Below, piece after piece: positions 56 to 25,528 of a DNA stretch of 64,000 nucleotides (within the stretch, counting starts at the first letter, position 1; each line of letters opens with the position of its first letter). Both the position numbers and the translations under genes were made by a program. The notes beneath the pieces were generated by a model. It saw only the letters and a list, made by a program, of their open reading frames with translations, ran no database searches and was not told where the DNA came from. The stretch comes from Chthonomonadia bacterium (GTDB lineage Bacteria; Armatimonadota; HRBIN16), in NCBI GenBank assembly GCA_013314755.1, contig JABUFA010000012.1, forward strand, positions 1 through 64,000. Direction: 5' to 3'.

Positions 56-170
56 AGGGTATCCCTCCGATGTCGTTTGTTTGAAGTATACCCTTTGGGG
101 CTACCTGCTCTCAAGAGGGAGACTACCAGTTACAATTACCCTCGAAAAGCCTTGACATCCGGAAGGGTAT
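56..170. repeat. Three AGGGTAT heptamers in the nar-type promoter region
   Basis: The heptamer AGGGTAT occurs at 56-62 and 164-170 on the plus strand, and as its complement ATACCCT at 88-94. The third copy lies in the spacer between the -35 and -10 boxes of the promoter at 152-180, where a bound repressor would block RNA polymerase. Three copies in 115 bases is suggestive, but no known regulator is recognised. A separate small palindrome, GGATA-CATA-TATCC, lies at 191-204 just after the expected transcription start. Confidence 0.35.
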
Positions 171-180
171 TCTCTATAAT
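152..180 (+). promoter_or_regulatory. Consensus sigma-70 promoter of the nitrate-type operon
   Basis: A perfect -35 box TTGACA (152-157) and a perfect -10 box TATAAT (175-180) are separated by exactly 17 bases. Transcription would start near 187, about 60 bases before the narK-like start codon. It is the only strong plus-strand promoter seen before the five-gene run that ends at 7522. Such a perfect promoter usually needs a repressor to keep it quiet, which fits the heptamers around it. Confidence 0.85.
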
Positions 181-246: not shown

Positions 247-1437
247 ATGGATACTCGCAAGCCCGTAACCGCGTTGACCCTTGCCACGCTGGCGTTTGCC
301 ATCGCCTTCGCGGTGTGGGGCATCATCGCGCCAATGGCGAAGACCTTCCAGACGAGCCTCGGGCTCACCGAGAAGCAGGCGTGGCTGCTGATTGCTGCGC
401 CTGTGTTGCTGGGGTCCATCGGGCGTATCCCCATGGGCATGCTGGCAGACCGCTATGGTGGCAGGATAGTCTTTTCAGCGTTACTGCTCTTCGTTGCCAT
501 TCCCGCCTTTATGCTCAGCCGGGCACACACCTACGCCGAGTTCCTGTTCTGGGGGCTACTGCTGGGTTTTGCGGGCACGTCGTTTTCCATTGGCATCGCC
601 TTCACCTCGCGCTGGTTCCCACCGGAGAAGCAGGGGCTGGCTCTGGGCATTTATGGGGCAGGCAACATCGGACAGAGCATTGCGCTGTTTGGAGTGCCGG
701 TGCTGGCAAGCGCGTGGGGCTGGCAGAACGCATACCGTGTGTTCGCGCTGGTGGCGCTGGTATGGGGCGTGGTGTTTCTGCTTCTCGCCCGAGATGCGCC
801 CGCAAAGACACAGCCCAAGTCTTTCGGCGCGATGTTGAAAGTGCTGGCGACTGAACCGCTGTCGTGGCTGTTATCGCTGTTCTACTTTGTTACCTTCGGC
901 GGTTTTGTCGCGCTGAGTATCGGCTTGCCCAAACTGCTGCAGGAGATTTTCCACCTGACCAAAGAGGACGCCGGATTGCGTGTGGCAGGCTTTGTGGTGG
1001 TGGCTACCGCCATGCGCCCTGTTGGCGGGTGGTTAAGCGACCGGTTTGGCGGTGCGAAGGTATTGATGGCGGTTTTCGCCGCAGCGGGGGTGCTGGCGCT
1101 TGGCTTGACGGTGGAGCACATTGTGCCCTTCACCATCGGGGCGCTGGGCGTGGCTGCGGCAATCGGCACCGGTAACGGCGCGGTGTTCAAGCTGGTGCCC
1201 CAGTACTTTCCCCGCGACGTTGGCACGGTTACCGGACTGGTCGGCGCGATGGGTGGCTTGGGAGGCTTCTTCCCACCCATCGTGCTGGGCTACATCAAGA
1301 CCTATACCGGCGTGTACGATTTGGGGTTCGTTCTGCTGTCGGCGTTCTGCTTTGCCTGCCTTGTGCTGAACTACAGAGTATTCCTGTACGGTGCGCGGCA
1401 AGCGCAGCGAGTGCCAACAGCATCACCGGGTACGTAG
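247..1437 (+). CDS. narK: NarK-family nitrate/nitrite MFS transporter
   Basis: A 396-residue major facilitator superfamily protein with about twelve hydrophobic segments. The loop after the second helix carries the MFS motif G-M-L-A-D-R-Y-G-G-R. Two glycine-rich stretches (GAGNIGQSIALFGVP, and the run around GTGNGAVFKLVPQYFP with GAMGGLGGFFPP) match the nitrate signatures of the NarK/NNP family. It should move nitrate in and/or nitrite out across the inner membrane. The ATG follows GGAGG at 234-238 with good spacing. It is the first gene of the operon, 28 bases before the molybdoenzyme gene, and is the main reason to propose nitrate as the substrate of that enzyme. Import versus exchange cannot be told from the sequence. 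Confidence 0.88.
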   Translation: MDTRKPVTALTLATLAFAIAFAVWGIIAPMAKTFQTSLGLTEKQAWLLIAAPVLLGSIGRIPMGMLADRYGGRIVFSALLLFVAIPAFMLSRAHTYAEFLFWGLLLGFAGTSFSIGIAFTSRWFPPEKQGLALGIYGAGNIGQSIALFGVPVLASAWGWQNAYRVFALVALVWGVVFLLLARDAPAKTQPKSFGAMLKVLATEPLSWLLSLFYFVTFGGFVALSIGLPKLLQEIFHLTKEDAGLRVAGFVVVATAMRPVGGWLSDRFGGAKVLMAVFAAAGVLALGLTVEHIVPFTIGALGVAAAIGTGNGAVFKLVPQYFPRDVGTVTGLVGAMGGLGGFFPPIVLGYIKTYTGVYDLGFVLLSAFCFACLVLNYRVFLYGARQAQRVPTASPGT

Positions 1438-1465
1438 AAATCACATTATCACGATAGCGAGGTAG

Positions 1466-3910
1466 ATGGATATGGCGACGCTACACGCGGTTCCCGGACG
1501 TATACCAAAGCCTGCCCCGCAGGAGAAGGTGCGGGTGGTGCGCACTACCGACAGCCCCAACTGCACCGGCGCCTGTGGATGGATGGCAACGGTCGTCAAC
1601 GACGTCATTGTTGACCTGAAACCCGCAGCGGATTATCCCTGCGAGGAGTACAACCCTCGTGGCTGTCTGCGCGGGATGTCCATGACGCATATCATTTACG
1701 GTCCCGACCGCATCAAGACGCCTCTCATCCGTGTGGGCGAACGCGGGGAGGGCAAATGGAGGGAAGCCACCTGGGACGAGGCGATGGACTACATTGCCCA
1801 GAAGATGAAGCACATTATGGAGAACTACGGACCGGAGAGCATGTTGCTCTTCAACCAGGTGGTCGGCACAAGCTATGTACAAAAGGGCGCACAGATCCGC
1901 ATGGCCGCTCTGCTGGGGATGTCCTTCGCCACTGCCTACGACTACAACGGCGACATCTCCATGGGCTTTACCCAGACCTTCGGCATCGACAGTGTGGAGT
2001 GCGAGACCAAGAGCTGGGGATACGCCAAATACGCCATCCTGTGGTCATCCAATGTCCTGCAGACGCGCATCCCCGATGCCCAGTTCCTGACCCGCTTCGC
2101 CAAACAGCGCAATAACTGTAAGATTGTCTCCATCGACCCCAGATGCAGTCAAACGGCAAAAGCAGCCGACCTGTGGTTGCCGATTAACCCGGGCACCGAC
2201 GGTGCGCTGGCGCTGGCGATGTGCCAGGTGCTTATCGAGGAGAACCTGGTGGACTGGGAGTTTCTGCGAACCTACACCGACTGCGCCACGCTCATCCGTG
2301 AGGATAACGGAATGCGCCTGCGTGCCAGCAACGTCGGGATGGGAGGCGAGAACGAGTTCCTAGTGTGGGACGAGACCCGCCAGGAACTGTACAAACTGCC
2401 CACCGACACGCTGGAACTGCCGGAGGATGTGCGTCCTGCCTTCAGGGGTGAATGGACGGTGCAGATAGACGGCAAACCGGTCAGGGTAAGACCCGTCTAT
2501 CAGCTGCTGGAGTCGGTTATCATGCGGGACGAGTACACCCCCGAGCGCGTGGCACAAATCACCGATATCCCAGCCGAAACCATCCGCCAGGTAGCCAGGG
2601 AATACGCCACTACGAAGCCCGCCATTATCATCATCGGGATGGGCATCAATCACCGCTACTATGGTGACCTGACCATTCGCTCCATCCTTCTGCTCAGCAC
2701 ACTGGCGGGCAACTATGGCACGCCCGGCTCAGGGGTCTCCATCTACTCGGGACAGCATCACTTCCGCATCGACATCAGCGGATTCTGGTACCCCGACGGC
2801 AAGCGACCCAATGTGGTGCCCCTGCACTATTTTGTGCTGGGCAAACCCACCGAAACCATCAACCCCAAAATCAAATATCCGAAGCACGGGTTCAAGGCGC
2901 TGTTCGTCTCGCACGGCAATCCGCTGGTCACCGAGTTCTCCAGCCTGATGAAACAGGCGATAGACCGGCTGGAGCTGTTTGTGGTGATCGACTTCAGCAT
3001 GACGCCCACCTGCGAATACGCCGATGTGGTGCTGCCCGCGCCAACCTTCTGGGAGAAGTACGACCTGGTGGGCACCAGCTGCCATCCTTACCTGCAGATT
3101 CAACAGCCGGTTATCCCGCCCCAGTATGAGAGCAGGACGGAGCTGTGGATGGTGCAGGAGCTGGTCAAACGGGTGGCGCCCGAGCTGTACCACTACTTCG
3201 ACCTGACGGAGCTGGACGCCGTTCGCATCCTGCTGGAGACGGGCGGCAAAGAGACCGAAGGTATCACGCTGGAACGGCTGCTGCAGGGACCCGTCCGTCT
3301 GAACGTGCCCGACCCGGAAATCGGGCTGGACGAACAGCTGTTGCACAAGAAACCGTTCCCGCCGCGAGCCTATCCCTTCCGGGTGGAACAGCAGCGAGAG
3401 TTCCTGAAGACAGGGCGCATGGAGTTCTACAAAGAGGAACCCATCTACCAGCAGATGGGCGAGTCGCTGCCGGTCTTCAAGCCTGCCTTCAGCCACCTGC
3501 CGGAGGAGGACCAGAAGATGCCGCTGTGCATCGTTACGCCGCACTCCAAGTGGCGGGTGCACTCCACGCACAGCAACAACCCGGTTCTGCTCAACGTGAA
3601 CCGCAAACCGGTGGTGGAGATTAACCCGCGCGACGCGATGGCACGAGGCATCCGCGACGGCGACCTGGTGGAGATATACAGCAACTATGGCTCGTATCGC
3701 CTGTGGGCGCTGGTTACCGAAGCCATCAAACCCGGCGTTGTCTGCGTGGACCACGGCTGGTGGGACCGCTATCTCGCCGGCGGCAAGTACCACAGCGTGC
3801 ATACGCACCAGAAGATTAAACCCACCCACGAGGCGTATTTCCTGCCCGCGGTATACGCCCCCGGGCAACACTGGAAAGACACCCGTGTGGACGTCAGAAA
3901 GGTGGAATGA
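1466..3910 (+). CDS. Nar-like molybdopterin oxidoreductase, catalytic subunit
   Basis: An 814-residue protein of the DMSO reductase superfamily, binding a bis-MGD molybdenum cofactor. The N-terminal cluster motif reads D29-x3-C33-x3-C37-x29-C67, so an Asp sits where most members have Cys and NarG has His. This pattern, with TRIPDAQF near residue 200 and D163 in YNGDISMG as candidate Mo ligand, places it near the type II (Asp-ligated) branch of NarG and relatives. No twin-arginine signal is seen, so the active site is predicted to be cytoplasmic. It is much shorter than NarG (about 1200 residues) and no narJ chaperone gene follows. With narK upstream and a NarH/NarI-like fusion downstream, nitrate reduction is the favoured role. 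Another oxyanion, or the reverse (oxidising) direction, is possible. Confidence 0.8.
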   Translation: MDMATLHAVPGRIPKPAPQEKVRVVRTTDSPNCTGACGWMATVVNDVIVDLKPAADYPCEEYNPRGCLRGMSMTHIIYGPDRIKTPLIRVGERGEGKWREATWDEAMDYIAQKMKHIMENYGPESMLLFNQVVGTSYVQKGAQIRMAALLGMSFATAYDYNGDISMGFTQTFGIDSVECETKSWGYAKYAILWSSNVLQTRIPDAQFLTRFAKQRNNCKIVSIDPRCSQTAKAADLWLPINPGTDGALALAMCQVLIEENLVDWEFLRTYTDCATLIREDNGMRLRASNVGMGGENEFLVWDETRQELYKLPTDTLELPEDVRPAFRGEWTVQIDGKPVRVRPVYQLLESVIMRDEYTPERVAQITDIPAETIRQVAREYATTKPAIIIIGMGINHRYYGDLTIRSILLLSTLAGNYGTPGSGVSIYSGQHHFRIDISGFWYPDGKRPNVVPLHYFVLGKPTETINPKIKYPKHGFKALFVSHGNPLVTEFSSLMKQAIDRLELFVVIDFSMTPTCEYADVVLPAPTFWEKYDLVGTSCHPYLQIQQPVIPPQYESRTELWMVQELVKRVAPELYHYFDLTELDAVRILLETGGKETEGITLERLLQGPVRLNVPDPEIGLDEQLLHKKPFPPRAYPFRVEQQREFLKTGRMEFYKEEPIYQQMGESLPVFKPAFSHLPEEDQKMPLCIVTPHSKWRVHSTHSNNPVLLNVNRKPVVEINPRDAMARGIRDGDLVEIYSNYGSYRLWALVTEAIKPGVVCVDHGWWDRYLAGGKYHSVHTHQKIKPTHEAYFLPAVYAPGQHWKDTRVDVRKVE

Positions 3911-3912
3911 TT

Positions 3913-5793
3913 ATGGCACGACTGGCAATGCTCATTGACCTGACGCGGTGCATCGGATGTGATGCCTGCACTATCGCCTGCAAACAGGAAAACGGCACGC
4001 CGGCAGATGTGTTCTTCGCGCGGGTGCTGAACGTAGAAGCAGGCACTTATCCCACGGTGAAGCGCATCTACATCCCGGTGCTGTGCAACCATTGCGATAA
4101 CCCGGCGTGTCTGAAAGCCTGTCCGAACAAAGCCATTTTCCGCCGCGACGACGGTATCGTGCTGATCGACCAGGACCGCTGTCGGGGAGCAGGAGCCTGC
4201 GTTTCGGCGTGTCCTTACGGCAATATCATCCTGACCGACAGAGACCGCTGGTATCTGCCCGATGACCGCCCCTACGAGCGTGATTTCGTCAGGCCGCGCC
4301 TGAAGGAACAGGTTGCCCGCAAATGTACCTTCTGCGCGCACCGGGTGGACCAGGGGCTGGAGCCGGCATGTGTGGTCGCCTGTCCAACCACTGCCCGCAT
4401 CTTCGGCGACGTGGAAGACCCCAGCAGTAAAATCTCGCGTTACATTGTGGAACAGCAGGAAACCACCGGTCGCCAGCCCTTCAAACTGCTTCCCGAGGCG
4501 CAGACACAGCCGGCAAATATGTATCTGGGCACGATGGCGGCACAGGAGGTCAGCACGACGGAGGCGCCTCCCGGCAGGCGTGAGATACCCACAGAGGCAG
4601 AGCAACAGCGTGAGCGCACGGGCGTGCTGGTGGGTGCTGCGAGGTTGTTCACAGGATTTACCCTGCTATGGCTGATTGCCATCGCTGTGCTGCTGGCGCT
4701 GCAAGCCAAAGCCCAGCCGAACGGCGCAGCCCCAACGCCTTCGGAACTCTACGCGGACTCGGCGTGCGCGGGATGTCACGGACCAAACGTGATGGGCGGG
4801 CTGGGACCGCCGCTTGCCGAAACAAAACTGACATACGACCAGTTCCTCAAGATCGTGCGGGAGGGGCGCGGGATGATGCCGGCTACTCCAGTCTCTGAGA
4901 TGCCTGACCAGGAGGTGCGTGTCATCTATGACCTCGTACGTCAAACCCGTCTGGACATCATGCAGGTTCCCACCTCTTACAAGGTTGGTCAGTGGCTAAG
5001 CACCACGCACGTTGCGGTAATATTCTCCATCGTCACCCTTATCGCGCTGGTGTTTACCATCCGTGTGATACTGTACTGGGTAGACTGTGCCGGCTGGAAG
5101 TATCTCAAGCCCTACCTGCAGCGGTTCGGCTACGGCAGGGCGCTGGGAGTGTTCCTGCGCTCGCTGGTGGTAGACGGCTTGCTGGTGGCCCACCTGTGGC
5201 GTAAGGACCGGTTCCGCTGGCTGATGCACGCGCTGATGCTCTATGGATTCATCGGGCTGGGGGTGGCGGACATCTTGATGACCATCTTCAACCCCACGCG
5301 CGGCACGCTTCCCATCACTCATCCGCTGAAGCTCCTGCCAAACATCGCAGGACTGCTGATACTGGCGGGCATCGTGTACGTGCGCTACCGCTACAGCGAA
5401 GACCCCTACATCGACAACGGCGTGACCCTGAGCAGAGACTACACCTTCCTGAGCCTGCTGACATGGACCATCCTGACGGGCTTTCTGGTAGAAGGGCTGG
5501 GTTATGCCGGGGCGTACATGTGGATACAGCCGGCGTACATGCTTCACCTTGCGCTGGTGGCAGGGTTGTTTGTCACTGCACCGTTCACCCGCTTCTCGCA
5601 TGTGTTCGTGGTGCCGATTCTGATCGCGTTGACGCGCGTGACCTCCCAGGTGGCTTTCAGCGGGGTGGAGGCAGGTTTTCTGGATGAACCCTCGCCGGGA
5701 CGCCACCACAAGTCCGAGCGTATCGCCGCCGATGTGTTACAGCAGGTAGCACCGGAAGTCGCAGGGCAGTTCCGCCTGCGTTACTACCCGTAA
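3913..5793 (+). CDS. Fused FeS / cytochrome c / NarI-like membrane subunit
   Basis: A 626-residue electron-transfer protein. Residues 1-165 form a NarH/DmsB-like ferredoxin domain with four Cys groups: C13/16/19/23, C58/61/66/70, C90/96/100 and C138/141/153/157. The third group reads CRGAGAC, lacking one Cys exactly where NarH has Trp (CRGWRMC), which predicts one [3Fe-4S] and three [4Fe-4S] clusters. A membrane helix (about 245-266) precedes a cytochrome c domain with CAGCH (285-289). The last 260 residues have about five helices with conserved His and the HL...PFTRFSHVF pattern of the NarI/DsrM family. The FeS part should face the cytoplasm and the c-type heme the outside. ATG 3913 is chosen over 3907 because AAAGGTGG lies 7 bases upstream. 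The frame overlaps the previous stop region. Confidence 0.82.
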   Translation: MARLAMLIDLTRCIGCDACTIACKQENGTPADVFFARVLNVEAGTYPTVKRIYIPVLCNHCDNPACLKACPNKAIFRRDDGIVLIDQDRCRGAGACVSACPYGNIILTDRDRWYLPDDRPYERDFVRPRLKEQVARKCTFCAHRVDQGLEPACVVACPTTARIFGDVEDPSSKISRYIVEQQETTGRQPFKLLPEAQTQPANMYLGTMAAQEVSTTEAPPGRREIPTEAEQQRERTGVLVGAARLFTGFTLLWLIAIAVLLALQAKAQPNGAAPTPSELYADSACAGCHGPNVMGGLGPPLAETKLTYDQFLKIVREGRGMMPATPVSEMPDQEVRVIYDLVRQTRLDIMQVPTSYKVGQWLSTTHVAVIFSIVTLIALVFTIRVILYWVDCAGWKYLKPYLQRFGYGRALGVFLRSLVVDGLLVAHLWRKDRFRWLMHALMLYGFIGLGVADILMTIFNPTRGTLPITHPLKLLPNIAGLLILAGIVYVRYRYSEDPYIDNGVTLSRDYTFLSLLTWTILTGFLVEGLGYAGAYMWIQPAYMLHLALVAGLFVTAPFTRFSHVFVVPILIALTRVTSQVAFSGVEAGFLDEPSPGRHHKSERIAADVLQQVAPEVAGQFRLRYYP

Positions 5794-5811
5794 GAGAGGA
5801 GGCTATCACCG

Positions 5812-6318
5812 ATGAGCAATAACGGATTTGAACATAACGACGACCAGCCGAACGCCGTCCTCCGACGCAGGGTGCTGGGGTGGCTGGTAGGCGTCATCAA
5901 CCTCGCGGTGCTCGGGGGTATCGTTGCACCCGTTCTGGGGTTCATCAGCTCGCCGGCGAACTGGCGACAGCGCAGAAAGGAGTGGATACCTGTTCTGGAC
6001 GAGAGCCGCCTGCGACCGGGCGAAACGCTTTCAGTAAACTATCAGGTACCCATACAGGACGGCTACACAAACGCACAGCGCAAGTACAGCGTCTACCTGT
6101 ATCGCCGGTTAGACGGTTCGGTGGTGGCTTTTGACCCCTCATGTCCCCATCTGGGCTGCCGGGTGGAGTTTCGGGAACGCAAACAACGCTACATTTGTCC
6201 CTGCCATGGCGGGGTGTTTGACGCCGATGGCAATCTGGTGTCGGGTCCCCCGCCAACCGGTCTAACCAAATTGCCTGTCAGGGTGGACGCGGGCAAAATC
6301 TGGATACGGAGGGTGTAA
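5812..6318 (+). CDS. Rieske [2Fe-2S] iron-sulfur protein
   Basis: A 168-residue protein with an N-terminal membrane anchor (about residues 20-45, after RRR) and a soluble Rieske domain. The cluster motifs are C111-P-H113-L-G-C116 and C129-P-C131-H132-G-G, supplying two Cys and two His ligands plus the disulfide pair. The usual forms are CTHLGC and CPCHGS; the Ser-to-Gly change would be expected to lower the redox potential (family knowledge). The start follows GAGGAGG with good spacing and the next gene begins 4 bases after the stop. With the cytochrome b gene it should form a quinol-oxidising bc-type module that feeds the oxidoreductase encoded upstream. Confidence 0.9.
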   Translation: MSNNGFEHNDDQPNAVLRRRVLGWLVGVINLAVLGGIVAPVLGFISSPANWRQRRKEWIPVLDESRLRPGETLSVNYQVPIQDGYTNAQRKYSVYLYRRLDGSVVAFDPSCPHLGCRVEFRERKQRYICPCHGGVFDADGNLVSGPPPTGLTKLPVRVDAGKIWIRRV

Positions 6319-6322
6319 GCGT

Positions 6323-7522
6323 ATGGCACACCTTATCGAAAAAACCGTCGAAAGAGAACCGACCCCATCGCGTTCGGATGGACAGCCGATGGAACCAGTA
6401 TCGCCCCGGCAAGAGGCAGGGTGGATAGGTCGCCTGCGCGACTGGATTGAGGAACGCACGGGCATCTTCGCCTTCGCCAAACACCATCTGGACGAGCCGA
6501 TGCCTCCGGGCGTCGGATGGTGGCAGACGCTGGGCAACCTGTTGTTGACCCTGCTGATATTCCAGTTCATCACCGGCTTTGCGCTCGCCATGTTCTACGC
6601 GCCAACGCCGGACCACGCCCACGAAAGCGTGAGATACATCATGGAGGAAGTACCGCTTGGTGCGTTCATCCGAGGACTGCACCACTGGGGTTCCTCGTTT
6701 ATCATACTGGTGGTGATACTGCATATCCTGCGCGTGTTCTTCTGGGGCTCGTACAAGAAGCCGCGCGAGCTGACCTGGCTGGTGGGCGTGGCAATCTTTC
6801 AGGTGATGATGGCGTTCGCGTTCACCGGCTACCTGCTCATCTGGGACCAGAAGGCGTACTGGGCAACGGTAGTGGGCACACGTTTTGCTAGCACAGTGCC
6901 TGTCATTGGCGACTGGCTCATGCACTTCCTGCGCGGTGGCGAAGAGGTAGGTGCGCTAACCCTGACCCGCTTCTATGCCATCCACATCATGCTCCTGCCG
7001 GTGGTGCTGGTACTGTTGACGGCGGCGCATCTGTACCTGGTGAGGCGTCTGCACATCGCGGGGCCGGTGGTACCACAGAAAGGCAAGCCTCAGCCGTTTT
7101 ACCCCTACCAGCTCTTTCGGGACGCTGTGGTGGTTATGGTCGGCGTGGGTGCACTGGTGACCTGCGCTCTGCTGTTCAAACCCGCGCTGTATCCGGTGGC
7201 TGACCCTTCTGGCACAAACTTCACTCCGCGTCCCGAATGGTACTTCCTGGGCTTGTACGAACTGCTGAAGCTGATGCCGCCGAAGCTGGAGATACTGGGC
7301 ACGGTGGTCATCCCGGGGCTGGTGGCGCTGGGCATGATCCTTCTGCCCTGGCTGGACCGTTCGCCATCGCGGCATCCCGCCCGTCGGATGTGGGTGATTG
7401 AGGCGGGGCTAATCGTCATCTTTCTCATCGGCACGCTAACGCTGAAGGGGATTCTTTCCGAGCATCCCATGCCGCCTGCCACGTCGTCGGCAGTTTCTTC
7501 TACCGCTTCCCTCCCACAGTAG
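6323..7522 (+). CDS. b6-type cytochrome b (b6 plus subunit IV fusion)
   Basis: A 399-residue membrane protein with about eight helices. Heme ligands appear as H-x13-H (from HHWGSSFIILVVILH) and H-x14-H (from HIMLLPVVLVLLTAAH). The 14-residue second spacing is typical of cytochrome b6 rather than mitochondrial-type b. The Qo-site PEWY motif is present in RPEWYFLGLYELLK, so the b6 and subunit IV parts are in one chain. No cytochrome c1 or f gene follows, unlike ordinary bc1/b6f operons, so the electron acceptor is likely the cytochrome c domain of the fused subunit encoded upstream. A perfect hairpin follows 5 bases after the stop, so this is probably the last gene of the operon. Confidence 0.9.
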   Translation: MAHLIEKTVEREPTPSRSDGQPMEPVSPRQEAGWIGRLRDWIEERTGIFAFAKHHLDEPMPPGVGWWQTLGNLLLTLLIFQFITGFALAMFYAPTPDHAHESVRYIMEEVPLGAFIRGLHHWGSSFIILVVILHILRVFFWGSYKKPRELTWLVGVAIFQVMMAFAFTGYLLIWDQKAYWATVVGTRFASTVPVIGDWLMHFLRGGEEVGALTLTRFYAIHIMLLPVVLVLLTAAHLYLVRRLHIAGPVVPQKGKPQPFYPYQLFRDAVVVMVGVGALVTCALLFKPALYPVADPSGTNFTPRPEWYFLGLYELLKLMPPKLEILGTVVIPGLVALGMILLPWLDRSPSRHPARRMWVIEAGLIVIFLIGTLTLKGILSEHPMPPATSSAVSSTASLPQ

Positions 7523-7603: not shown

Positions 7604-8119
7604 ATGCGTAAGGGTCAACGCTTTACAAGAACATATCCCCTCGCGGCGATAGTGCTTATCCTGGCGGTATCCGCGCTGTGGTACCGCTGGATGCCCGCCC
7701 GCGGCGACTTCACCGGCAAAGTGGTTGGCGTCTCGGACGGCGACACCATTGAGGTCATGCGTGCAGGACGAGCCGTTCGTGTGCGCCTGCACGGTATTGA
7801 TTGCCCCGAAAGCAGGCAGGCGTTCGGCACACGCGCCAAGCAGTTCACTTCCGAACTGGTCTTCGGCAAAACGGTGGCGGTGCAGGTGTACGGAACCGAC
7901 CAGTACGGGCGCATTCTGGGCGAGGTCATCCTGCCCGACGGCCGAAGCCTCAACCGCGAGCTGGTGCGCAACGGCTACGCCTGGTGGTATCGCCGCTACT
8001 CGAACGACCCGGTGTTACAGCAGCTCGAGGACGAGGCGCGGCGCGAACGACGCGGCTTGTGGCGGGATAAGAATCCGATTCCGCCCTGGGAGTTTCGCCG
8101 GGAGAGCAGGAGACGATAG
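7604..8119 (+). CDS. Thermonuclease-family (SNase) protein, membrane anchored or secreted
   Basis: A 171-residue protein with a hydrophobic N-terminal segment (about 11-28) followed by a staphylococcal-nuclease OB fold. The family motifs are all present: DGDTIEV, RVRLHGIDCPE (catalytic Arg and Ca-binding Asp region) and the second Arg in DQYGRILG. It should cut DNA or RNA in a calcium-dependent way outside the cytoplasmic membrane, for scavenging or degradation. It follows the operon hairpin and shows no functional link to the respiration genes. The RWMPARGDF region marks the start of the catalytic domain. Confidence 0.85.
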   Translation: MRKGQRFTRTYPLAAIVLILAVSALWYRWMPARGDFTGKVVGVSDGDTIEVMRAGRAVRVRLHGIDCPESRQAFGTRAKQFTSELVFGKTVAVQVYGTDQYGRILGEVILPDGRSLNRELVRNGYAWWYRRYSNDPVLQQLEDEARRERRGLWRDKNPIPPWEFRRESRRR

Positions 8120-18815: not shown

Positions 18816-19628
18816 TTAGTCCAATATATACACTTTGACCTTGCGCATACCGACCCGCTTCGCTTGTTGATAAGTGTCGTGCCCAAGGTCAATGCGATTG
18901 CCTTTAATCGCTCGTCCGGTATCTGCAGCAATCGCATAGCCATATCCTTCGATATACAGGCGCGTGCCAAGCGGGATATAGCGGGGGTCCACGGCAACGG
19001 TTCCGTAACCCGCCTTAATCCCGGTTGCGGTGCGTCCCGAGCGGCTGCCGCCACAGACATAAGGTGCGTAGCCTGTAGCGATCATAGTCAGCACACGCCG
19101 TCCGCTAAAGAAACCTCGCGCGGGCAGCGAGCCGCCCGCCCCGTACCGCTCGATGCGCGGTTTGGGTTGCGAGATAACTTTGGACGCTAACACCTTTCGG
19201 GACACCTCCTGCCCGTCCTTGATGGTGACCAGCCATTGGATGCGCTTAATCCCATCCTGCCCTTCCTGCACCACCCGTTTCACCCCTGCCCGCAGTGCGG
19301 GGTCGGCGAAACGCTTGGCGGGCGCCGGAATGGACTGCTCTTCGGTAACCACCTGCTGGCGTACCCGGGTCACCACCACTTCCATTCCATCGGCAAGAGG
19401 TGTTGCCGGAGGCGGTTGGACGCGGTCCAACTTCTCCAGGCGTATCTCCGCTTCGCGCAAGAGTTCTGCGACGGTTGCGGCTTGTGTGTCCAATGTACGC
19501 ACCGTGCCACCTTCGCGCAGGCGCACCGAGAACCGGCGACCTGCGTCTGCGGTCACGAACGCACACAGGGTTGCAGCTATCAGCAGAGCGACAGCAGGCG
19601 TTCTGCCGTGCGCGTAACGCAAGTGCAC
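18816..19628 (-). CDS. Secreted DUF348/G5/3D-domain protein (YabE-like, cell-wall active)
   Basis: A 270-residue exported protein. A signal peptide (about 1-29) is followed by a ubiquitin-like DUF348 domain (VRLREGGTVRTLDTQAATVAELLRE region), a G5 domain (about 105-165) and a C-terminal 3D domain, named for its three Asp (AVDPRYIPLG, AADTGRAIKG, RIDLGHDT). The 3D domain resembles the MltA/RlpA lytic-transglycosylase fold, so it probably cleaves or remodels peptidoglycan. The start is GTG at 19626-19628 with GGAGG 7 bases upstream. The link to rsmA parallels yabE in Gram-positive bacteria. The domain order matches that family. Confidence 0.88.
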   Translation of the reverse strand: MHLRYAHGRTPAVALLIAATLCAFVTADAGRRFSVRLREGGTVRTLDTQAATVAELLREAEIRLEKLDRVQPPPATPLADGMEVVVTRVRQQVVTEEQSIPAPAKRFADPALRAGVKRVVQEGQDGIKRIQWLVTIKDGQEVSRKVLASKVISQPKPRIERYGAGGSLPARGFFSGRRVLTMIATGYAPYVCGGSRSGRTATGIKAGYGTVAVDPRYIPLGTRLYIEGYGYAIAADTGRAIKGNRIDLGHDTYQQAKRVGMRKVKVYILD

Positions 19629-19719
19629 GTCGGTACCTCCTTTCGGGCTTTTTCGGTGCCGTCGGGACGCAGATTGTCAAGTTACTCCCGCCTTTTTACG
19701 GGCGTTGTAACGCTCGTGC

Positions 19720-19749
19720 ATTTTACCACGAGTTGCGAGGAAAAGTCAA
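19720..19749 (-). promoter_or_regulatory. Promoter of the G5/3D-domain gene
   Basis: On the minus strand TTGACT (19744-19749) and TAAAAT (19720-19725) are separated by 18 bases. A leader of about 85 bases precedes the GTG start and contains short G/C inverted repeats (GCGTT-AC-AACGC; CCCG...CGGG). No known riboswitch fits this short leader. Confidence 0.7.
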
Positions 19750-19892
19750 CATGTCTTTCTGCATGCTACCCTAAGTTGGTCTATGAGCCCACGCAGGAGA
19801 TCTCTCAGGTGATGTGGAACACAATATTGCACGAACCGGTGGCAATTACTGGCAGAAGGGGATGGCAGGAGCAACGGGGAGGCAGACGTGTA

Positions 19893-22800
19893 ATGAATCC
19901 GGTACCTGACCTTGTCGATAATACAACCTCCACGCTCGCGAGTGTGCTAAACGCTCTGTTAGAAAGCGCCGACTCGCCCGCACTATCCGTTTGCACCGCC
20001 TACTTCAACCTCGAAGCTCTGGAGAATCTCCAAAAGGTCATTGAGCGGCTTCAGTCCGTCAGACTATTACTTGGCACCGAACAGGAGGTCGGGTTCGTCG
20101 TAGGACAGAGGCTTCGGCGGGACCTGGAAAGCGCATTCGCGCAGGGTAAGGAAGGTACTCTGGAAACACTGAGGCGATGGAAGGACTACCTCAGTCAACC
20201 ACGCGTGGAAGTGCGCTGTTATAAGAAAGGCTTCCTGCATGGCAAAGCGTACCTTGTGGACGGAGTCCCCACGCTCGGGGCAATTGGCATTGTTGGCTCC
20301 TCCAACTTTACGGGAGCAGGCTTGACTACGAATATGGAACTGAACGCAGTGCTGAAACAGCAGTCGGCGGTTGAGCATCTTCGACGATGGTATGAACAGT
20401 TGTGGGACCAATCCGAAGAGTATAAGCACGACCTTGTGCAGTTGCTGGATGTGTTCGCGCGTCAGTATGCCCCCTATGAAATCTATATCAAGGTTGTCTA
20501 CGAAGCGTTCCGTGACAAGCTTCAATCCAGTCTTCAGGAGAAAGAAGGCGACCCATCGCCCATTGCGCTGGCGGATTTTCAACACGAGGGATACCTCGCC
20601 GCGCGAGAGGTGCTGGACAACTATGGCGGCGTACTGATTGCAGACTCGGTGGGATTAGGCAAGACATTTCTTGCCCTTCGGCTGCTCGACGACTACGCCT
20701 ATCGCCGGCGTGAAACCGCCCTGATAGTATGCCCTGCCGCATTGCGGGACACAGTGTGGAAACCGCTGCTTCAGGCGCACGCCATTCCGCACCACATTGA
20801 GAGTATGGAACGTATCAGTCAGCAGGATTGCCCAATTGACGAACTTGCTCGCTACAAGATAGTCGTTGTAGATGAATCGCACAACTTTCGTAATCCCAAC
20901 GCCAACCGCTGGGAGAACCTGTTCCGAGTGATGTCGCAGGCATCGGACGAAAAAAAGCTGATATTGCTTACCGCCACCCCGGTGAACAATACCGTGTTTG
21001 ACCTTTACCACCAGCTTCGCCTCATCACGCGAGACCGCAAAGATTATTTCGCCGACGCAGGCATCAGCGACCTCGAGTCCTATTTCCGACGTGCTGAGGC
21101 GACGCGCGAAGCTCTGTACGAGGTGCTGGAGGCTGTGGCTGTACGGCGCAGCCGCTCGTTTATTCGCAAAAACTATCCCCATGCGCGCATCGACGGGCAA
21201 GCACTGCGTTTTCCTGACCGCGTTATTCAAAGCGTAAGATACGACCTGGAGAAGAGTTATGGCAGCACGCTATACAGGCAGGTCGCACAGGCAATAGAAA
21301 ACCTGCGACTGGCACCATATCAGGTGGACGCTTACCGGACGGAGCTGAGGCGGCGAATTCCAGTCAGCTTGTTTGACGGAGAACAGAGTCTGATGAATCT
21401 CTTGCTGGGGAGTGGCTGGAAGCAGGAAGAAGCTCAACGATTCGCGATGGATCTGGGACGGCAGACCTCACTGGCACATATTATGCGTGTGCTGTACCTG
21501 AAACGATTGGAATCGTCGGTGGAGGCATTGCGTATCTCCCTACAACGGCAGCTGGATTTCCAGAGAAAATTCCTGGAGGCGCTGGAACAGGGTAAACGTC
21601 TTACCAGCGCGCTCTACCACCGATATTTCGTTCAGATGGAAAGCGCTGACGACCAGGCGGAAGCCCCCGATAATCAGTTAGATTTGTGGAGTCGATTGGA
21701 GGACATCGACACCAGCCTGTATCGGGTAGAGAATATCAAAGCGGATGTAAAGCATGATATCGAAAGTCTGGAAGCCCTGCTTGAGAAACTATCGTTGCTA
21801 ACTCCTGAGCAGGACGAGAAGCTGCAGGTGCTAAAACGCCTCCTTACCACACAACTGGCGGGGCAAAAGGTTCTGCTGTTCAGCTATTTCAAGGACACGG
21901 CGCGGTATCTGTATCGCCACCTGCACGGTGACGGGGAGGTTCTACGCGCCTTTAACAGGATAGCTATCACGGATAGCAATATCAGCCCCGAAGAACGGCG
22001 TTCTATTGTTCAGCGGTTTGCACCAAAAGCAAACTGCCCGGTGCGCAGCGAGCCACAACACGAACCAGGCAAATGCGGTTATTGCTGTCCGAAAGAGGAG
22101 GTGCAATTGCTTCTGTCCACAGACGTGCTGAGCGAGGGGCAGAATCTGCAGGACGCGAGCATTATCATTAACTACGATTTACACTGGAATCCGGTGCGTA
22201 TGGTTCAGCGTATCGGTCGCATCGACCGCATCGGTTCGCCACATGAACGAATCGACGTGTACAATTTCCACCCCGAAGATAAGCTGGAAGACCTGTTGAA
22301 TCTGATGAAGCGGCTTCACGAGAAGCTGGATGCCATCAACCGCACGGTTGGGCTGGACGCTTCGGTGCTGGGAGAAGTGCCGAACCCGATGGACTTCAAT
22401 ACCCTGCGCCGCATCGCGGAGGAGGACCAGCAGGTGCTGGATGACCTCGAAAGGGAAAGTGAGCTGAATGTTGGTGAGTTTCTGCAGGCAGACCTGCTGG
22501 ACTTTCTGAAGCGCGTGGGAGAACAGGTAATGGAAGGGATACCGCTGGGTATGGGCACGGCGCGATACTGCGCCAGGGGAGGAACGCCAGGTTTCTTTGT
22601 TGCCCTGCGCAACACGCAGACGGATAAGCATTACTGGTTATTCGCACCCGCCTCGGACCGAAACGTGGTGGAGTCGCGCCTGCAGGCTATTAGCCACATT
22701 CGCTGTAACGATGGAGAGCCAGCGGCCCCGCTTCCCGAAGACTTCGATCCTGCCCCGTTTATTCACCGCCTGAGGCGACATCTTGTTCAGCGACTCAATC

Positions 22801-23123
22801 AAGTAGCGCACCGACTGCCAATCCTGCCTGCACCTCAGAACCACATCGTCGCTCGTCTGCAGACGATGCCCAGTTCTGCCGCCCGTAACCAGCTGCTGGA
22901 ATACCTGCGTGAGCCTCTGCCTGCCACACACTTGCGTGACCTGCGACCGATATGGCAACAGAACAGAGCAAAGTCCAATAAAGAACTCTTGCAGGTACTG
23001 ACCCGATTCATGGAGAGCCATCCGCGGCCGTCTGTGCCAGCGCCTGATGTACGCGAGGTGGGCGAAAAAGATATAGAATGCGTTGCCTGGATGCTCGTAC
23101 TGGAGAGGCAGGAGGAGGTGTGA
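19893..23123 (+). CDS. PLD-nuclease/SNF2-family helicase fusion (defence helicase)
   Basis: A 1076-residue protein. Residues 1-170 form a phospholipase-D-like domain with one HKD motif (H116-x-K118-x4-D123, then GSSNFTGAGL), typical of nucleases. A SNF2/superfamily 2 helicase follows: Walker A DSVGLGKT (251-258), DESH (327-330), LLTATPVNN, and late motifs STDVLSEGQNLQ and QRIGRIDRIG. A Cys/His cluster (CPVRSEPQHEPGKCGYCC) interrupts the second helicase lobe. It likely translocates on DNA and supplies nuclease activity in a restriction-like system with the methylase gene, which begins 5 bases after its stop. ATG 19893 has GGGGAGG upstream; ATG 19812 in frame is an alternative. Sequence upstream of 19812 in this frame lies opposite the 3D gene and is not real coding sequence. 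Confidence 0.85.
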   Translation: MNPVPDLVDNTTSTLASVLNALLESADSPALSVCTAYFNLEALENLQKVIERLQSVRLLLGTEQEVGFVVGQRLRRDLESAFAQGKEGTLETLRRWKDYLSQPRVEVRCYKKGFLHGKAYLVDGVPTLGAIGIVGSSNFTGAGLTTNMELNAVLKQQSAVEHLRRWYEQLWDQSEEYKHDLVQLLDVFARQYAPYEIYIKVVYEAFRDKLQSSLQEKEGDPSPIALADFQHEGYLAAREVLDNYGGVLIADSVGLGKTFLALRLLDDYAYRRRETALIVCPAALRDTVWKPLLQAHAIPHHIESMERISQQDCPIDELARYKIVVVDESHNFRNPNANRWENLFRVMSQASDEKKLILLTATPVNNTVFDLYHQLRLITRDRKDYFADAGISDLESYFRRAEATREALYEVLEAVAVRRSRSFIRKNYPHARIDGQALRFPDRVIQSVRYDLEKSYGSTLYRQVAQAIENLRLAPYQVDAYRTELRRRIPVSLFDGEQSLMNLLLGSGWKQEEAQRFAMDLGRQTSLAHIMRVLYLKRLESSVEALRISLQRQLDFQRKFLEALEQGKRLTSALYHRYFVQMESADDQAEAPDNQLDLWSRLEDIDTSLYRVENIKADVKHDIESLEALLEKLSLLTPEQDEKLQVLKRLLTTQLAGQKVLLFSYFKDTARYLYRHLHGDGEVLRAFNRIAITDSNISPEERRSIVQRFAPKANCPVRSEPQHEPGKCGYCCPKEEVQLLLSTDVLSEGQNLQDASIIINYDLHWNPVRMVQRIGRIDRIGSPHERIDVYNFHPEDKLEDLLNLMKRLHEKLDAINRTVGLDASVLGEVPNPMDFNTLRRIAEEDQQVLDDLERESELNVGEFLQADLLDFLKRVGEQVMEGIPLGMGTARYCARGGTPGFFVALRNTQTDKHYWLFAPASDRNVVESRLQAISHIRCNDGEPAAPLPEDFDPAPFIHRLRRHLVQRLNQVAHRLPILPAPQNHIVARLQTMPSSAARNQLLEYLREPLPATHLRDLRPIWQQNRAKSNKELLQVLTRFMESHPRPSVPAPDVREVGEKDIECVAWMLVLERQEEV

Positions 23124-23128
23124 TACCG

Positions 23129-25528
23129 ATGCAGCTACAGCAGGTCCAATCCGCTCTATCTCAGTGCCATCGCCCGGGAGAGATTGCGCAATTGTTGAAG
23201 GTGCTCGGGTATCCCTTAACGGAGCCAACCATATGGGACGTTTCCGACCTGCCAGAGAGTGCTCGGGCAAAACTAAGGCAGGTATATCTGTTATCCACTG
23301 TGGAAGACGAACATGGCATCTTTCGCGTCTACCACCTGGAGATGACCTCGTTCAAACGCGCCGACCTGCGTACGGTGATCGAGCCGTTCTACCGATGCCA
23401 TCCGCAGGGCAACTATCTGTTTGTCGCAACCACTGACGACCCGGCGAATATATTGCTCATTAGCCCACGACGCATCTTCCTGCAGGATGCTGGTAAAGTG
23501 AAACTGCTCCTGCGCACTCTATCAGTGAACCCTTCTGCACCGTTCCGAACCGACCTCGAGATCTTGGCAGCAATCGCCGCCACACCCGGTGAGAAAGCCG
23601 AGCAGATATGGCGTAAACACGAGGACGCTTTCAGTATCGAGCGCGTAACGCAGAAGTTCTTCAAAGAGTACAGAAACAGATTCGAAAAAGCTGAAAGTCT
23701 TATCCAGGGTATCAACGGCGACGAGAGACGGATATTCACACAGAAACTGTTCAACCGCCTGCTCTTCATTCGGTTTCTGGAGCGCAAGGGCTGGCTCAGG
23801 TTCGGCGGGAGTCCCGATTACCTCCGCGCTCTCTGGCAGAACTATCAGAAAAACGGCGGTGGAGAGTTTTACCGGGAAAGGGTGAAACCGCTTTTTTTCA
23901 CTGCGCTGAACACCCCGCACGACGTCAACGTGGTTGGCATCAATCGCGGCGGATACTTGCAAAACCTGCTTGGGGAGGTTCCTTACCTCAACGGCGGGCT
24001 GTTCGAACAGGACGACCTCGACAGGCGCGACGATATTGTCGTACCCGATGAAGCGGTCGAACCCGTTATTAATGAACTGCTTTACCGTTTCAATTTCACC
24101 ATTACCGAAAGCAGCCCGCTGGATGTGGAAGTGGCAGTCGATCCCGAGATGCTGGGCAAGGTGTTCGAGGAGCTGGTTACCGGACGCCATGAGACCGGCA
24201 GCTATTACACCCCACGCCCTGTAGTGGCATTTATGTGTCGCGAAGCGCTGAAAGGCTACCTCTGCGACGCCTGCCCGCAGGAGGACGTAGAAAGTATCAA
24301 CGTTTTTGTGGAGGAGCGAGATGCCACTAACCTGCGTGACCCCGAAAAGGTGCTAGATGCGCTCAAGCAGACTAAAGTATGTGATCCCGCGTGCGGCAGC
24401 GGTGCATACCTGCTTGGGATGCTTCATGAGCTGCTGGATCTGCGCCAGTGCCTCTTCCAGCAGAAGCGCCTCGGCCCGGCAACCGTGTATCAGCGCAAAC
24501 TGGAGATTATCCAGAATAACCTGTACGGCGTGGATATCGACCCCTTTGCGGTGAACATTGCCAGACTGCGCCTGTGGCTGAGCCTGGTGGTGGACGATGA
24601 ACGCAATCCGTTAGACGACCAGAGCGTGGATGTGGCACTGCCCAACCTCGACTTCAAGATAGAAGTCGGCGATAGCCTGCTGGCTCCTGACCCGCAAGGT
24701 GGCGTTCAGCCCGACATGTTCCGCGCAGAGCAAATCGACAGGTTTGACCGGTTGAAAGGGGAATACCTGCGCGTGCACGCCTACGGTGAAAAGGAAGCCC
24801 TGCGCAAAGAGATCGAAGAGTTGCGTGAGGAGATTCGGCAGTGGGCGCACCCAGGCAATCAGATATCGGGCTTTGATTGGCGCGTGGAGTTCGCCGAGGT
24901 GTTTAAACGTGGCGGATTCGATATCATCCTGGCAAATCCTCCCTATGTCCGGCAGGAACTTATTCCGAATAAGCCTGCGCTGTTGAAACAGTATGAGGAT
25001 GTCGCAGAAGGGCGGTCTGACCTCTATGTCTACTTCTATGCCCGTGCCCTGCAACTGCTCAGGCAGGGGGGGGTCCATGTTTTCGTCTGCTCCAACAGCT
25101 GGCTGGATGTGGGATTTGGAGGTAAGTTGCAAAAGTATCTTCTGGAGCATTCTCATATTCAAGCCATTTACGACTCCGCCGTGGAGCGCCAGTTTGCCAG
25201 TGCAGACGTGAACACGATTATCTCCATCTTGCGCAAGGGGCGCCCCGCCGACAATGCCAGAACACGCTTCATACGCCTTCACAGCGCATTCGAGTCCGCT
25301 ATCGCCGACCCCAGCCAGCAACGGGTGATTGAGAAGACCCGCGAGGAACTGTGGCAAGAGGGGCTGGATGATGAGGGGCGATATGTCGGCAACAAATGGG
25401 GAGGCAAATACCTTCGTGCGCCTGATATCTACTTCACGATTTTAGAGAAAGGACAACGTTATCGCGTACTGCAGTGGTCTGGTGAGCCCGTTATTGTAGA
25501 GGATATTACCGATTCTCTGGAGGATTGA
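23129..25528 (+). CDS. Eco57I-type adenine-N6 DNA methylase (apparently truncated C-terminus)
   Basis: A 799-residue protein of the Eco57I/type IIG-like methylase family. The SAM-binding motif DPACGSGAY is at 419-427 and the catalytic motif NPPY at 603-606. An N-terminal ~350-residue region (with VTQKFFKEYRNRFEKAE and LFIRFLERKGWL) is the usual helical lead of these enzymes. A TAGERHETG-like block (TGRHETGSYYTPRPVV) precedes motif I. Whether the N-terminus carries a nuclease is not clear; EMTSFKR near residue 71 is only a weak candidate. The protein stops after RAPDIYFTILEKG plus 24 residues, where single-chain relatives continue into a target-recognition domain; that part is encoded at 25721-26797. 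GGAGGAGG precedes the ATG. Confidence 0.85.
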   Translation: MQLQQVQSALSQCHRPGEIAQLLKVLGYPLTEPTIWDVSDLPESARAKLRQVYLLSTVEDEHGIFRVYHLEMTSFKRADLRTVIEPFYRCHPQGNYLFVATTDDPANILLISPRRIFLQDAGKVKLLLRTLSVNPSAPFRTDLEILAAIAATPGEKAEQIWRKHEDAFSIERVTQKFFKEYRNRFEKAESLIQGINGDERRIFTQKLFNRLLFIRFLERKGWLRFGGSPDYLRALWQNYQKNGGGEFYRERVKPLFFTALNTPHDVNVVGINRGGYLQNLLGEVPYLNGGLFEQDDLDRRDDIVVPDEAVEPVINELLYRFNFTITESSPLDVEVAVDPEMLGKVFEELVTGRHETGSYYTPRPVVAFMCREALKGYLCDACPQEDVESINVFVEERDATNLRDPEKVLDALKQTKVCDPACGSGAYLLGMLHELLDLRQCLFQQKRLGPATVYQRKLEIIQNNLYGVDIDPFAVNIARLRLWLSLVVDDERNPLDDQSVDVALPNLDFKIEVGDSLLAPDPQGGVQPDMFRAEQIDRFDRLKGEYLRVHAYGEKEALRKEIEELREEIRQWAHPGNQISGFDWRVEFAEVFKRGGFDIILANPPYVRQELIPNKPALLKQYEDVAEGRSDLYVYFYARALQLLRQGGVHVFVCSNSWLDVGFGGKLQKYLLEHSHIQAIYDSAVERQFASADVNTIISILRKGRPADNARTRFIRLHSAFESAIADPSQQRVIEKTREELWQEGLDDEGRYVGNKWGGKYLRAPDIYFTILEKGQRYRVLQWSGEPVIVEDITDSLED

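Follow-up and report, generated by a model that had tools for sequence, protein, structure and literature searches.

Nitrate reductases that receive electrons from a cytochrome bc complex have been described in Streptomyces (Nar1; PMC7931247) and in Campylobacter (Nap; PMC6195509), so the principle of such a coupling has precedent. Genes for the two partners can also be found side by side. In haloarchaea, the nar operon includes Rieske and cytochrome b genes (PMC2483277; Haloferax larsenii, L211), together with NarG, NarH, EB_dh-like and TorD-like genes, and in Thermogutta terrifontis the genes of a bc complex lie beside a deep-branching NarG (PMC5673643). The Thermus NarCGHJIK system has an outward-facing cytochrome c on a NarI-type nitrate reductase (PMC7694296). 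In NarG and type II enzymes a His at the first FS0 position is described as general, and changing this His to Cys in E. coli as leading to loss of activity (PMC8301774); insertion of FS0 and of the Mo cofactor in E. coli also needs NarJ (PMC10609526). In the literature searched, we found no description of a dedicated module sharing the cytochrome c.

Here we analysed a window of 64,000 nucleotides, which starts at the first position of contig C53 in a 3.9 Mb, 98.7% complete genome of HRBIN16, a class of Armatimonadota (PMC11788075). A sequence-only reading of this DNA had proposed a respiratory operon of five genes behind a consensus promoter. Indeed, five ORFs occupy the + strand between 247 and 7522, and their family matches agree with that proposal: a NarK-family MFS transporter for nitrate/nitrite (247..1437, 396 aa; MFS/NarK, 241.6 bits on TIGR00886 with a cut-off of 311.7); a catalytic Mo-bisPGD subunit (1466..3910, 814 aa; Molybdopterin, PF00384/PF01568/PF04879); a fusion of FeS, cytochrome c and NarI-like parts (3907..5793; Fer4_11, Cytochrome_CBB3 and Nitrate_red_gam); a Rieske [2Fe-2S] protein with one N-terminal transmembrane segment (5812..6318, 168 aa; Rieske, PF00355); and a cytochrome b made of a b6 and a subunit-IV-like part (6323..7522, 399 aa; Cytochrome_B N and C, with a PEWY motif and two His pairs). 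The genes are closely packed, the stop codon of the catalytic gene overlapping the start of the fusion gene. The predicted sigma-70-type promoter (TTGACA-17-TATAAT, 152..180, + strand) matches the consensus at 12/12 positions, and its 3' end lies 66 nt upstream of NarK; over the whole region, promoter-like sites are not in excess (3 versus 2.6 in shuffles). Directly 3' of the operon lies a staphylococcal-nuclease-like gene (7604-8119), also found after the operon in bacterium HRbin16 (L009, 10468-10983) and, judged by length and place, in the genome G003. Further along the window (19236-25528), a large SNF2/helicase-PLDc protein precedes an Eco57I-type methylase; the two may form a restriction or defence locus.

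The nearest named relative, bacterium HRbin16, has all five genes in identical order, at 68-92% identity (L009). When genome contigs were scanned with the fusion protein, this locus was the one close relative and the rest were distant FeS proteins; a plasmid search gave no match above about 33% identity. Among 291 Armatimonadota genomes, the catalytic subunit (at least 67% identity) was present in 37, and so was the operon-type cytochrome b (at least 60% identity). The two occurred together in 36 genomes, with a single exception on either side (Fisher p about 1e-43, a value to be read with the kinship of the genomes in mind, which means that these are not independent events). The order catalytic-FeS-c/gamma-Rieske-b is kept over several Armatimonadota families, and the FeS, c, gamma, Rieske and b parts all lie near the catalytic gene in 29 of the 31 loci with flanks examined; at L124 these parts were not within the fetched stretch, and L150 is without Rieske and b. 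This set recurs across the Armatimonadota and is therefore not a chance assembly. The proposal that the genes belong together thus withstood a search for the same gene order in relatives, with the qualification that the conserved module starts at the catalytic gene and includes NarK less strictly.

In G104, the catalytic gene is broken and the operon-type cytochrome b is missing; at this locus (L150, 10766-14868) an uninterrupted frame joins the C-terminal part of the catalytic protein to FeS-c-gamma, the break lies in the 5' part of the gene, and Rieske/b do not adjoin it; the copy may be decaying. In G003, of the same genus (L151, 7752-9656), Rieske and b are present without the enzyme. Compared with L114, this locus differs by one deletion of about 5.7 kb, which removed NarK together with the catalytic gene and the bulk of the fusion gene, leaving the last 52 fusion codons, Rieske and b intact: the G003 exception is a deletion scar. 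Several loci carry additions. The fusion proteins of L125 (6470-8554) and L145 (11269-13353), each of 694 aa, have a second, N-terminal cytochrome c domain; a further Rieske gene and an ArrB-like FeS gene lie beside the module in opposite orientation at L115 (6742-8754) and L133; and at L121 (6457-7986) a MoaE-ThiF/MoeB fusion just before the module places molybdenum cofactor synthesis next to the enzyme.

The catalytic subunit had been read as NarG-like, which does not hold by descent: it lies outside the NarG clade, scores below the narG and type II cut-offs and has Asp, not His, at FS0. In a maximum-likelihood tree of 47 sequences, among them no labelled ClrA, SerA, DdhA, NxrA or Thermogutta sequence, it groups with Firmicutes enzymes (support 100/99), and this pair of clades stands beside the clade formed by NarG, haloarchaeal NarG and a chlorite-dismutase-linked enzyme (100/100 for the whole). 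In an AU test on 25 sequences, joining the subunit to the NarG-type set was rejected (p-AU 3.7e-5), the underlying tree being without NapA/NasC outgroup and saying nothing on deeper branching. The subunit reaches 269 bits on the narG model (cut-off 1084) and 512 bits on TIGR03479, the model of the type II DMSO reductase family (cut-off 985); a type II enzyme from the same phylum (L136) scores 1182 bits on the latter. The nearest solved structures by sequence are PcrA (perchlorate reductase), then ethylbenzene dehydrogenase and NarG; by fold they are PcrA, ethylbenzene dehydrogenase, NXR and NarG, with Kuenenia NXR more distant than PcrA. Assignment to NarGHI was ruled out by the tree, the cut-offs, the FS0 ligand and the chaperone tests, and assignment to the type II family was dropped as the TIGR03479 cut-off was missed. 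The type II enzyme of L136, like those of L208 and L209 in the Firmicutes sample, belongs to a different operon with Rieske, cytochrome b, a catalytic subunit with His at FS0, and FeS genes; L136 also has multi-domain cytochrome c, EB_dh-like and NarJ-like genes and resembles the haloarchaeal Nar.

The nearest catalytic clade is one without known function, and the phylogeny thus did not tie the enzyme to a family of another known activity. Across the sample taken outside Armatimonadota (1280 genomes, four other phyla), the closest relatives are uncharacterised Tat enzymes of Firmicutes, Chloroflexota, Nitrospirota and Myxococcota (39-47% identity). These sister enzymes have a Tat signal and a Cys as first FS0 ligand, and those sampled have neither c/gamma nor Rieske/b genes alongside. 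Downstream of the Firmicutes sister genes come an FeS gene and a third gene, NrfD where profiled (L179); the sister genes of Chloroflexota and Nitrospirota also have a third gene of about this length behind them. This uncharacterised, Tat-exported Asp-ligand molybdoenzyme family was met in all four phyla (L179, L194-L207, L219, L225-L228); its Firmicutes members often lie beside a second molybdopterin enzyme, and L179 is also accompanied by a sigma-54 regulator.

The Armatimonadota form departs from these relatives at defined positions. The codon of Asp29 (1550..1552, + strand) aligns with the first FS0 ligand, which is His in NarG and Cys in the sister clade. Asp occupies this position in every aligned Armatimonadota sequence of the family, the other three Cys are kept, and Asp29 may thus be predicted to ligate the FS0 cluster. 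Asp163 (1952..1954, + strand) is invariant in the alignments and lines up with the Asp that ligates Mo in the NarG/PcrA lineage, which makes it the probable Mo ligand by homology. The gate-position Phe of PcrA/NarG is Ala here. The aligned Armatimonadota N-termini contain no Tat signal, and we infer that the catalytic subunit is cytoplasmic. Only the Armatimonadota form combines the absence of a Tat signal, Asp at the first FS0 ligand position, and c/NarI-like and Rieske/b genes. A search of the 98.7% complete genome for the NarJ chaperone gave no match to PF02613.

The FeS part of the fusion (3907..4590, + strand) contains 15 Cys within residues 15-159, and in relatives it begins at what is Met3 of the window's protein. 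It had been described as NarH-like; residues 1-228 in fact resemble ArrB and PsrB, and scores of 183 bits for ArrB, 173 for TtrB and 82 for narH (cut-off 524) place this part nearer to ArrB/PsrB/TtrB than to NarH. In the structure model of the fusion, the FeS part was too poor to be read. A hydropathy peak at residues 239-271 marks a transmembrane segment (4621..4719, + strand) that would bring the polypeptide across the membrane to the outside. In relatives with split genes, this segment is replaced by a signal-peptide-like N-terminal stretch on the c/gamma gene, which is consistent with a topology with the beta part inside and c outside; the fusion would likewise have its FeS part inside and its c domain outside. 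About a dozen loci carry the FeS-c-gamma fusion, and most others have separate FeS and c/gamma genes. The single polypeptide noted earlier is thus real in the window and not universal, many relatives splitting FeS from c/gamma; the fusion was considered as the main novelty and downgraded because so many relatives carry two genes.

The CBB3-type cytochrome c domain (4729..4941, + strand; PF13442, 9e-12) has the heme motif CAGCH at 4765-4779 and a candidate axial Met in GRGMMP; CxGCHG and GMMP are kept in aligned relatives. It is followed by a NarI-like membrane domain of about five transmembrane segments (4990..5793, + strand; PF02665 at its cut-off), which ends in a conserved tail, EPSPGRHHKS...LRYYP. 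With hhalign, this domain matches the C-terminal helices of E. coli NarI (E 2e-5), and two His at the NarI heme-ligand spacing align; with Foldseek it also matches NarI (prob 1.00, E 0.02). His441, His547 and His565 are kept throughout the family. His429 occurs in HRBIN16 only; other families have Ser at this position, most of them with a His in a later helix (LLxH). A fourth NarI-type heme ligand is thus not kept across the family, and the domain may or may not hold a pair of b hemes spanning the membrane.

The Rieske protein and cytochrome b have complete motifs. The Rieske motifs CxHxGC and CxCHG are present in 30/30 sequences, as is PEWY of cytochrome b, and its two b-heme His pairs are likewise found (30 sequences). 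The pair is nearer to b6f than to bc1, and in the cytochrome b sequence we saw no b6-type Cys for heme cn. Neither the operon nor the module contains a gene for cytochrome c1 or f, the fused domain being the sole c-type heme there. With no c1/f gene beside Rieske/b, this domain is a likely acceptor, and judged from gene content it is most likely the acceptor of the pair. The same genome has a second cytochrome b, fused to cytochrome c domains and with its own Rieske gene (L160); the presence of this separate bc complex argues that the Rieske/b pair of the operon is dedicated. The partnership claimed earlier thus gains from the analysis: the pair appears devoted to the operon, and the gene order is conserved. 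At L160 (6097-10935, contig C50), the 755-aa b-c fusion precedes a 679-aa protein that has CXXCH motifs as well as a b561-like part.

Does the module reduce nitrate? The catalytic subunit lies outside the NarG clade, hence nitrate is not implied by descent. The claim of a nitrate-type context finds backing in the neighbourhood: 19 of 30 loci have a NarK-type gene within their fetched flanks and the other 11 have none there, against 0 of 14 control loci in this phylum. TIGR00886 is the best match of the NarK-type neighbours scanned, at scores below its cut-off, and outside HRBIN16 these proteins are only about 35% identical to the NarK of the window. Profile matches place NasC-like genes next to the module at L118 and L119, and BLAST matches do so for molybdopterin genes of this kind at L133 and L141. 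The NarK association and the NasC-like neighbours therefore favour nitrate without proving it; the substrate would be an oxyanion reduced in the cytoplasm, probably nitrate. A search of the genome for NirK found none. The genome also encodes a COX1-family oxidase and a second, 763-aa COX1-family protein, which looks like qNor by length and N-terminus and had no NCBIfam match at the threshold used.

We propose, with moderate confidence, that the Armatimonadota assemble a membrane complex in which a Rieske/b quinol oxidase, lacking a c1 or f of its own, feeds the c domain of the molybdoenzyme and nitrate is reduced. From the analysis above we infer the electron path, topology, nitrate as substrate, reducing direction and charge count as follows. 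Quinol would be oxidised at an outer Qo site, with protons released outside, and one electron would pass via the Rieske cluster to the outward-facing c domain. The NarI-like b-heme domain would conduct it inward, and the ArrB-like FeS chain would deliver it to FS0 and the cytoplasmic Mo site, where nitrate imported by NarK would be reduced to nitrite. By the usual accounting, four charges would be moved per nitrate (two by the Q cycle, two by inward transfer), compared with two in NarGHI. A more far-reaching reading, which we offer tentatively, is that of a nitrate respirasome encoded in one operon: a cytoplasmic, cytochrome-c-oxidase-like molybdoenzyme with a dedicated bc complex and an Asp-ligated FS0 cluster, descended from an exported, NrfD-linked ancestor. 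Its derivation, equally tentative and to be taken jointly with it, would mean that this ancestor lost its Tat signal and took another membrane partner, and the bc complex would have ceded its cytochrome c role.

Other arrangements of the same parts have to be considered. The sequence-only reading had envisaged two quinol-oxidising modules, which is possible; a simpler view has Rieske/b as the sole oxidiser and the c domain linking it to a NarI-like electron wire. In the two-feed form, the NarI-like domain would oxidise quinol itself, in the manner of NarGHI, the c domain would be a branch to or from other partners, a role proposed for Thermus NarC, and Rieske/b would be a second, parallel feed. 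The domain is NarI-like, and in Thermus NarC interacts with NarI and acts as an electron bridge (PMC7694296); however, the module offers Rieske/b no alternative acceptor, and the occurrence of the pair follows that of the catalytic subunit, and we regard this arrangement as unlikely. At the other extreme, an ordinary molybdoenzyme and a separate bc complex could be co-transcribed and independent. Rieske/b does stand alone in G003, but there a deletion has removed the rest, a bc complex that lacks a gene for any c-type acceptor is unlikely to function by itself, and catalytic subunit and cytochrome b co-occur almost perfectly, which leaves independence hardly credible.

The chemistry may also differ from the one we favour. 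The grouping with uncharacterised Tat enzymes, perchlorate reductase as closest structure and the Ala at the gate position would all suit reduction of another oxyanion or an N- or S-oxide (e.g. chlorate, selenate or an unknown compound) in place of nitrate; the NarK association and the NasC-like neighbours speak against it, nor did a chlorite dismutase gene come to notice, short of a dedicated search, and we find it rather improbable. Reversal as a nitrite oxidase would oxidise nitrite in the cytoplasm and send electrons outward to the c domain, with Rieske/b acting as a reverse quinone reductase or idle. NXR of the Nitrobacter type works with a NarI-like subunit and a cytochrome c (PMC7694296), and an nxr-like cluster, which may or may not correspond to the present module, is reported from one Armatimonadetes MAG (PMC4821891); HRBIN16 MAGs, however, are described as rich in glycoside hydrolases, as for a heterotroph (PMC9671151), and such a reversal seems highly improbable.

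If the proposed complex is correct, nitrate respiration would here be wired like oxygen respiration, combining a Q cycle with a cytochrome c step in a single complex, and would move about double the charges per nitrate of NarGHI. The Armatimonadota, known from hot springs and anammox reactors, would also be credited with a probable nitrate step, through an enzyme that the NCBI nar models score under their curated cut-offs. The lineage further offers a natural case of a molybdoenzyme clade that seems to have switched membrane side while swapping both the FS0 ligand and the entire membrane partner, and in which the parts played by FS0 ligation and by the chaperone can be tested directly.

Compared with the known systems, the operon shares with NarGHI the Mo-Asp ligand, the absence of Tat export, a putatively cytoplasmic catalytic side, the NarI-like domain and the NarK partner. 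It differs in its catalytic subunit, which belongs outside the NarG clade and falls 433 aa short of E. coli NarG, in an ArrB-like FeS part, in Asp in place of His at FS0, and in the fused cytochrome c and Rieske/b; moreover, no NarJ family member was found in its genome. The haloarchaeal Nar, which has Rieske and cytochrome b genes as well, faces outside, has a catalytic subunit in the NarG clade with His at FS0, and lacks a c/NarI-like subunit. In Thermus, the outward cytochrome c, NarC, is a separate diheme protein that goes with NarGHJI proper, and the operon contains no Rieske/b genes. Thermogutta, by description, has separate NarH, NarI and TorD, and no c fusion is reported. The exported sister molybdoenzymes differ by their Tat signal, Cys-ligated FS0 and NrfD anchor (profiled in L179). 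Finally, the Rieske ligands, PEWY and the two His pairs are those of cytochrome b6f/bc1, whereas the operon is without c1 or f and without the b6-type Cys for heme cn. The earlier claim of an unusual respiratory architecture is thus borne out: the combination matches none of the nitrate respiration systems with which we compared it.
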